DNA of 64,000 nucleotides, from positions 96,505-160,504 of the forward strand of contig CACHDJ010000001.1 of the NCBI GenBank assembly GCA_902578525.1. The letters run 5' to 3'. Shown here in pieces: positions 55,205-57,108 of this stretch. The first letter of the stretch is position 1. Every line of letters begins with the position of its first letter. Under the pieces are notes generated by a model. That model had not been told where the DNA came from, did no database searches, and saw nothing but the letters and a program-made list of their open reading frames with translations. The DNA is from an uncultured Pelagibacteraceae bacterium. GTDB lineage: Bacteria > Pseudomonadota > Alphaproteobacteria > Pelagibacterales > Pelagibacteraceae. The position numbers were made by a program, and so were the translations under genes.

Positions 55205-57025
55205 GTGGAACGAATTATAACTAAATCATTTGCTAGATTGATGGGTCGAGGAACCCATAGAGGTTTTATAACTTATGAAGAATTAAGCAAATCATTAGGT
55301 AAGAGGAATCTTTCAGATGAAAATTTATCTAAAGCATTTATTCATATCTTAAATGAGAGCGTTACTTTAGTAGAAAAAAAATCTGATTATAAAGTTTTAA
55401 GAAAAAAAGAATCATCATCAAAAGAAGAGGGTAAATCAATAGAAAAAAGTGATGACCCAATTCGAATGTACCTAAGAGAGATGGGTGGAGTCGAACTTCT
55501 TTCGAGAGAGGGTGAAATAGCAATAGCAAAAAGAATAGAAGCAGGTAAAGATGTAATGTTAATAGCCTTATCTCAAAGCCCTATTACTGCTCAACAATTT
55601 TTTGAGTGGAATGAAAAATTACAAAAAGATGAAATTTTAGTTAGAGAGATTATTGATATTGACACAAATTATATGGAAGATGAAAGCACAGGACCAAGTG
55701 CCAAACAAAAAAATGCTGGTGAAACTGATAAAGAGGAAGGATCAACCGATGATGATGATTTTAATCCTACACTTGCTGCAATGGAGACAGAAATTAAACC
55801 TAAAGTTCTTAAGACAGTTCATGTTTTAACAAAAGAGTATAATAAGTTAATTAAATATCAAAAAGAAAAACTTGAACTTGTTTTAAAATCACAAACATTT
55901 TCTCCAGCAAAAGAAAAAACTTATGAAAAAATTGTAAACGATATCTTGAAAAATATTAAATCTCTCCAATTATCTCCCTCAGTTCTAGAGGATCTTGTTC
56001 AAAAAATTTATATAGAAAATAAAAAGATCATTTCTCTTGAAGGAAATCTTTTGAGACTTGCAATGGATAATAAGATTTCAAGAAATGAATTTATAAAATT
56101 TTATATTGGTAACGAAATAAATCCAAATTTGAAAAAGTTTTTAGATACTAATCCAATTTGGAAACAATTTTTTGCAAAAAATAAAGATGAATTTAAAAAT
56201 ATTAGAGAGAGATTAGTCGAAATAAGTCATAAACTTGGTATGTCTGTAACAGATTTTAAAAAGCTAGTTAGTAGAGTTCAAAAGGGTGAAAAAGAGTCAA
56301 GAATAGCTAAGAAGGAGATGGTTGAGGCTAACTTAAGATTAGTTATATCTATTGCTAAAAAATATACCAACAGAGGATTGCAATTTTTGGACTTAATTCA
56401 AGAGGGAAATATAGGTTTAATGAAGGCAGTAGATAAATTTGAGTATAGAAGGGGATATAAATTTTCAACTTATGCAACTTGGTGGATTAGACAAGCAATA
56501 ACAAGATCTATTGCTGACCAAGCAAGGACAATTAGAATTCCAGTTCATATGATTGAGACAATTAATAAGATTGTAAGAACTCAAAGATTAATTTTAAGTG
56601 AATTTGGTAGAGAAGCAACACCAGAAGAATTAGCAAAAAAACTTAGAATGCCCTTGGATAAAGTAAGAAAAGTTTTAAAAATTTCTAAAGAGCCAGTTTC
56701 ATTAGAAAAACCAGTTGGAGACGAAGAAGATAGTAGTTTAGGAGATTTTATAGAAGATACAAAAGCTTTAGCTCCATTAGAGCAGGCAATCAAATCAAAT
56801 TTAGGAGAAGCAACTACAAAAATATTATCTACTTTAACACCAAGAGAGGAAAGAGTTTTGAGAATGAGATTCGGTGTTGGTATGAATACAGATCACACTT
56901 TAGAGGAAGTCGGGCTACAGTTTTCAGTAACTAGAGAAAGAATTAGACAAATTGAGGCTAAAGCTCTTAGAAAACTTAAGCACCCGAGCAGATCGAAACA
57001 ATTAAAAAGTTTCTTAGAAAGCTAA
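55205..57025 (+). CDS. rpoD: RNA polymerase sigma-70 factor RpoD (GTG start)
   Basis: [83 protein letters not shown]. Confidence 0.98.
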
Positions 57026-57033
57026 TATCTGCT

Positions 57034-57108
57034 GGGCCGTTAGCTCAATAGTAGAGTACTGCATTGACATTGCAGGGGTAGTTGGAGCGTAACCAACACG
57101 GCCCACCA
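57034..57108 (+). tRNA. tRNA-Val-like (anticodon GAC), CCA encoded, with aberrant D- and T-loops
   Basis: GGGCCGT/ACGGCCC acceptor, anticodon arm CTGCA-TTGACAT-TGCAG, T-stem GTTGG/CCAAC, A73+CCA; but D-loop AATAGTA and T-loop AGCGTAA. Confidence 0.75.

Follow-up and report, generated by a model that had tools for sequence, protein, structure and literature searches.

Can a tRNA gene whose D-loop and T-loop both depart from the consensus that builds the tRNA elbow still encode a working tRNA? The question is raised by a tRNA-Val(GAC) gene in a stretch of 64,000 nucleotides from an uncultured Pelagibacteraceae bacterium (hereafter the window), which a preliminary description, made from the sequence, presented as having lost all of its elbow contacts. 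We consider it best explained as a working Pelagibacter tRNA reading GUU and GUC, in which the G19-C56 contact would have been kept and the rest of the elbow rebuilt and held by selection, and we give this reading a probability of about 85%.

A tRNA-Val(GAC) gene with an alternative elbow

The gene and its parts are as follows.

55205-57025, forward strand: rpoD (sigma-70), directly upstream of the tRNA gene (open reading frame)
57034-57108, forward strand: tRNA-Val(GAC) gene with an alternative elbow, CCA encoded (ARAGORN; Rfam RF00005, 53.6 bits)
57047-57053, forward strand: D-loop A14 A15 U16 A18 G19 U20 A21, with A18 at 57050 and G19 at 57051 (Rfam alignment; canonical orthologue AGTGGTA)
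57066-57068, forward strand: anticodon GAC, reading GUU/GUC (ARAGORN)
57076-57080, forward strand: variable loop GGGTA, with A48 (sequence; invariant in the alignment of versions)
57086-57092, forward strand: T-loop A54 G55 C56 G57 U58 A59 A60, in place of UUCRANY, with C56 at 57088 (sequence)

The full-length RF00005 alignment scores 53.6 bits (gathering score 29), and the cloverleaf is the minimum-energy fold (z = -3.3). As described earlier, all stems are paired (acceptor 7/7, D stem GCTC/GAGT, anticodon 5/5, T stem 5/5), giving the 7/4/5/5 bp stems and CCA of the family's cloverleaf, and the bases A35, C36 and A73 of the valine identity set (PMC9976931) are all present. When the E. coli acceptor determinants are considered, G3-C70 is found in eight of the ten distinct versions of the gene recovered from SAR11 genomes and pair 4-69 is C-G or A-U; the determinant U4-A69 and the minor element G20 are absent from the variant. 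As previously noted, 8 nt separate the rpoD stop from the gene, which is probably co-transcribed with rpoD. We regard it as real and, in all likelihood, functional, and its product would be charged with valine. The window also contains a class A RNase P RNA (RF00010, 60404-60758, forward strand, 290 bits), for which this tRNA, altered elbow included, must be a substrate, and a bablM sRNA (RF01784, 18555-18623, reverse strand, 68.7 bits).

Two contacts typical of RF00005, although not strictly defining it, are missing: in the Rfam alignment G18-Psi55 (G18-U55 in the gene) is replaced by A18/G55, and U54-A58 by A54/U58. The 15-48 position is A15/A48, non-canonical as reported. A canonical tRNA-Val(GAC) of the sister family within the SAR11 order (locus L201) is of the same isotype, anticodon and D-loop length and has the same T stem, GTTGG/CCAAC, as the common Pelagibacter version, and it carries AGTGGTA and TTCGATC where the variant has AATAGTA and AGCGTAA. 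Placed side by side, the two make the base correspondence plain: only G18 has changed, to A, while G19 and C56 are kept. The earlier statement that both G18 and G19 are absent is thus incorrect, and the supposed loss of every elbow contact holds for G18-Psi55 and U54-A58, which are replaced, but not for G19-C56, which can still form and whose two bases are invariant across the versions.

How might such an elbow be held together? A18 would take the intercalated place of G18 and pair or stack with G55, A54-U58 would close the T-loop as a swapped form of the reverse-Hoogsteen U54-A58, and the retained G19-C56 would still offer the flat outer face that the ribosome and RNase P use (PMC4810234). 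A further contact between positions 16 and 59 (U16-A59 or A16-U59), proposed from covariation, would probably help to hold the D- and T-loops together; a 16-59 contact is known from tRNA-Sec, as C16:C59 or U16:U59 (PMC7609411). The product is predicted to lack T54, Psi55 and m1A58, since U54, U55 and A58 are absent, and the T-loop GUUYRANYC recognised by TruB (PMC7912444) is not present in the variant.

Among known systems, the eukaryotic initiator tRNA shares A54, but there A54 pairs with A58, whereas position 58 is U in SAR11 (PMC7912444). Mammalian mitochondrial type II tRNAs also depart from G18G19 and TPsiC, and do so without interaction between the D- and T-loops (PMC7609411), whereas in SAR11 the G19-C56 pair and matched replacements remain. 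The mitochondrial-like, elbow-less interpretation first proposed is unsupported, since the gene retains G19-C56, its other changes are matched two by two, and 18-55 and 16-59 covary; the best reading is that the elbow has been rewired, and the interest of this tRNA lies in its matched replacements rather than in the loss claimed earlier. The literature on suppressor-tRNA selection deals with the 54-58 pair. Our literature search found no paper on A18-G55 tRNAs, nor on this feature of SAR11.

Conservation and probable decoding role in SAR11

We label the Pelagibacter genus g1, other genera of the family g5 to g10, and the sister family f2. A first search of the family matched 30 of 61 relatives, mostly at 100% identity and with one match per genome, and a motif scan of the whole collection found the variant in well over 100 independent assemblies, the matches listed being titled Pelagibacteraceae or Pelagibacterales; a sequencing error in the loops is thereby excluded. 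The identical 75-mer occurs in about 138 of the 151 first-round motif loci (Pelagibacter genus). Around 135 identical genes, the downstream 100 nt have a mean identity of only 46%, and the upstream rpoD coding DNA 68%; since the gene stays identical while its flanks diverge, it must be under strong purifying selection, and it is selection that maintains the rewired elbow. At 127 of 160 variant loci the distance from rpoD to the tRNA downstream is 3 to 36 nt.

Pairing reaches 100% of stem cells over the ten distinct versions, and in 12 pairs both partners have changed (totals that include the proposed 16-59 pair), the rarer versions having paired substitutions in the acceptor, anticodon and T stems. 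With the 16-59 pair again counted in, the covariation score is 0.518, versus at most 0.10 for slid controls. Positions 14, 15, 18, 19, 21, 48 and 54 to 58 are invariant; one version, in genomes G105 and G191, combines the D-loop AAAAGTA with the T-loop AGCGTTA. The comparison of orthologous loci that had been proposed as a check therefore shows compensatory changes in the stems while the non-canonical loops are held, and the idea that the two loops co-evolved is strongly supported: A18 accompanies G55 in every SAR11 case, and in nearly every phage case described below.

A decaying gene, a pseudogene or an assembly error would agree with the fact that 53.6 bits is the lowest tRNA score in the window. 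However, the near-invariance in well over 100 assemblies, the compensatory changes and the single, essential-looking copy leave this explanation with practically no credit, and the suggestion of decay is refuted by the near-perfect conservation of a single-copy gene. The pseudogene hypothesis was rejected, neither stem nor anticodon decay being found in relatives. At one locus (L030, genome G028) the variant is recognisable in its 3' half only, for which a chimera, a junction or decay are candidate causes.

Is the variant the only tRNA of its kind in the cell? In a complete relative (G012), a second tRNA-Val(GAC) was looked for and none was found: its 32 tRNAs include one Val(GAC), the variant, plus a canonical Val(UAC). 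When 76 genomes of the family were searched for either type of Val(GAC), 55 had exactly one and none had both. The variant was found in 18 g1, two g7 and one g8 genomes, that is, in all matched g1 genomes and in one of the 24 matched g8 genomes, and the canonical type in 34 (g5, g6, g8, g9 and g10), as it is in f2. Orthologues with canonical loops, which the preliminary description held would count against it, are thus present in sister genera, but there the canonical gene is present instead of the variant. One canonical Val(GAC), in genome G065 (locus L284), has C33 instead of the near-universal U33.

The last Val(GAC) pattern found no match in twelve g1 genomes. Four of them are about 97% complete; the other eight, for which the first search too gave nothing of full length, are 55 to 86% complete. 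These cases may reflect fragmentation, a variant that the pattern misses (as it would the version in G022) or loss of the gene. Neither type of Val(GAC) was found in two g7 genomes (G075 and G144) and several g1 genomes.

As GUU and GUC make up 59% of the valine codons in the long open reading frames of the window, the variant, if it is the decoding tRNA for these codons in Pelagibacter as these data suggest, apparently serves most valine codons. Could it instead donate valine outside the ribosome, as the peptidoglycan tRNA-Gly of Staphylococcus donates glycine? That tRNA is also altered at positions 18-19, but it loses G19, has the weak EF-Tu-binding T-stem pairs A49-U65/A51-U63 and stands among extra isoacceptors (PMC4052509). 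The SAR11 variant keeps G19 and, in its T stem, G49-C65, G52-C62 and G53-C61; over the ten versions, 49-65 is always G-C and never A-U, and 51-63 is U-A, A-U or G-C, so that A51-U63 does occur in some. Nor does the variant supplement a canonical isoacceptor: neither G012 nor any of the 55 matched genomes has a second GAC tRNA, of canonical type, that could serve translation. The codon usage likewise argues against a non-ribosomal role, and no gene for a partner transferase was seen adjoining the tRNA gene. We consider this explanation highly improbable, and the repurposing suggested earlier is unlikely because the complete relative has no other GAC tRNA. A working tRNA-Val(GAC), used on the ribosome, would account for these observations.

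Other SAR11 tRNAs and the loss of truB

The other two tRNAs of the window have canonical T-loops, as reported, but the claim that the change is specific to this gene does not stand. The tRNA-Phe(GAA) of the same genus, its only Phe tRNA and also present in the source genome, has AGGAGTA and TGCGAAT, with A18/G55; the tRNA-Thr(GGT) of G012 has AGGTAGTA and TGCAAGT, again with A18/G55; and a tRNA-His (locus L236) of the g5 genome G061, which is truB-positive, has AGTTAGTTA and TGCAACT, with the same two bases. Among 125 distinct tRNAs compared, G55 occurs only alongside A18, and A18 only alongside G55. Over 386 alphaproteobacterial genomes, an A18+G55 pattern matched in genus g1 only, but it spans one common D-arm form, so that rarer forms elsewhere, the His case included, would escape it. 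Within the genomes examined, the A18/G55 tRNA-Phe is found in g1, g8 and g9, and a canonical tRNA-Phe in truB-positive genomes and in g10.

The truB gene encodes the tRNA Psi55 synthase. It is cleanly deleted in g1, g8, g9 and g10 (loci L326-L341): the order infB-rbfA-truB-rpsO-pnp of f2, g5 and g7 becomes infB-rbfA-rpsO-pnp, without truB, in five g1, three g8, two g9 and one g10 genomes, and no leftover TruB match was found in the rpsO regions of the g1, g8, g9 and g10 genomes examined. The domain PF01509 is absent from five g1, one g8 and one g9 genomes, and present in f2, g5, g6 (where presence rests on the family search), g7 and 14 of 14 controls. In the incomplete source genome (G000) the rpsO region was not found. 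In a tree built from parts of RbfA, RpsO and Pnp, the truB-less genera group together with a support of 93.

A tentative scenario, to which we would give about one chance in three, is that deletion of truB, whose product is both Psi55 synthase and tRNA chaperone, left U55 without its advantage, and that G18-U55 could then drift to A18/G55 in several tRNAs. The truB-less genera form a clade, with truB retained in f2, g5, g6 and g7, and the distribution of the A18/G55 tRNA-Phe among g1, g8, g9 and truB-positive genomes fits it. However, in g10 truB is gone and tRNA-Phe is canonical, whereas the Val variant is found in two truB-positive g7 genomes (G191 and G132) and the His variant in truB-positive G061; truB loss cannot, therefore, be the sole cause. 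Relaxation would also leave A54-U58 unexplained. The loss of truB may nevertheless permit the A18/G55 change.

Phage tRNAs with similar elbows

Beyond SAR11, the rewired set of elbow bases was seen in this analysis in phage tRNAs only. With the A18+G55 pattern, hits were obtained in at least 115 viral contigs, mostly in real tRNAs of many isotypes, and a scan for the SAR11-type elbow matched eight. A third viral scan left positions 16 and 59 free, and 18 and 55 each free between two bases. Arrays of tRNAs in IMG/VR contigs (L342-L461, L465 onwards) contain many alternative elbows, with A18/G55 and with A-U, A-A, G-G or C-A at 54-58. Phage tRNA-Val(TAC), Ile(GAT), His and Met (L345, L458, L461, L385 and L457) have a T-loop of the same class as the SAR11 variant, A-K-C-G-U-W-A. 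The tRNA-Ile(GAT) combines AAAAGTA with AGCGTTA, as do G105 and G191, and Pseudomonas phage Astolliot has a T-loop of the A54-U58 class, ATCGTAA. These counterparts mostly have other anticodons and lie in tRNA arrays, whereas the SAR11 variant lies on a cellular chromosome, as the only GAC isoacceptor there.

The same pairing rule is followed by the phage A54-U58 tRNAs, which have either A18/G55 or G18/U55. In 722 bystander phage tRNAs, those picked by neither the A18+G55 nor the A54-U58 pattern, positions 18/55 are G/U in 655, A/G in 33, G/C in 15, A/U in 2 and G/G in none, with a few other combinations, and positions 54/58 are U/A in 662, A/U in 35, A/A in 15 and G/G in 5; the contigs having been picked for their unusual tRNAs, these numbers do not represent phages in general. 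The 18-55 association in phages exceeded all 1000 shuffles, with duplicate loop combinations removed and relatedness ignored by the shuffling. Within the A54-U58 class, 16-59 covariation was reached by 0 of 5000 shuffles for 8-nt D-loops and, more weakly, by 40 of 5000 for 7-nt D-loops (relatedness again ignored), and a 15-59 control gave no signal (505 of 1000).

Phage contigs L385, L433 and L460 carry a tRNA called tRNA-Pyl(cta) by ARAGORN, probably an amber suppressor. In Erythrobacter phage vB_EliS-L02 (OL955261.1), an unannotated tRNA-Val(GAC)-like gene (L462:301-375) has A18/G55, G54/G58 and the T-loop GGCAGCA.

Did the SAR11 gene come from a phage? An array tRNA could have entered SAR11, displaced the canonical Val(GAC) in Pelagibacter and sporadically reached neighbouring genera, a claim about origin that is compatible with a working tRNA. 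The spread of the variant is patchy with respect to the tree, g5, g6, g9, g10, f2 and all but one matched g8 genome being canonical, and its location differs, behind rpoD at most g1 loci and beside the initiator tRNA-Met in g7; together these suggest gene replacement, possibly from phage. Moreover, the highest scores outside SAR11 belong to phage tRNA-Val(TAC), whose AATAGTA, GGGTA and AGCGTAA are identical to those of the SAR11 tRNA. However, these scores (35 to 32) are barely above the 31 of the sister family's canonical Val(GAC). Convergence would also be easy, given that phage Met has the same loops and phage Ile and His have similar ones. No pelagiphage with the variant gene was found, either in the stricter viral scan or by blastn against named phages. 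A phage origin appears rather unlikely.

A broader scheme, which we hold only tentatively, would be that a second elbow code (A-G at 18-55, A-U at 54-58 and a 16-59 pair), widespread in phage arrays, was taken over, possibly by phage transfer, by the only GUU/GUC tRNA of SAR11, after or alongside the loss of TruB.

For annotation, a consequence is that ARAGORN misses some genes of this kind, several phage tRNA-like genes with such T-loops having escaped it. For the biology of free-living SAR11, the dominant bacteria of the ocean, the point is that two supposedly universal elbow contacts, G18-Psi55 and U54-A58, have both given way to others in the tRNA apparently responsible for most valine codons, and that Psi55 is also ruled out in the sole tRNA-Phe. 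These tRNAs are natural compensated mutants with which to ask which elbow contacts translation requires. Taken with their phage counterparts and the deletion of truB, they make testable the functional definition of the elbow, the role of TruB in tRNA evolution and the divergence of phage tRNAs.
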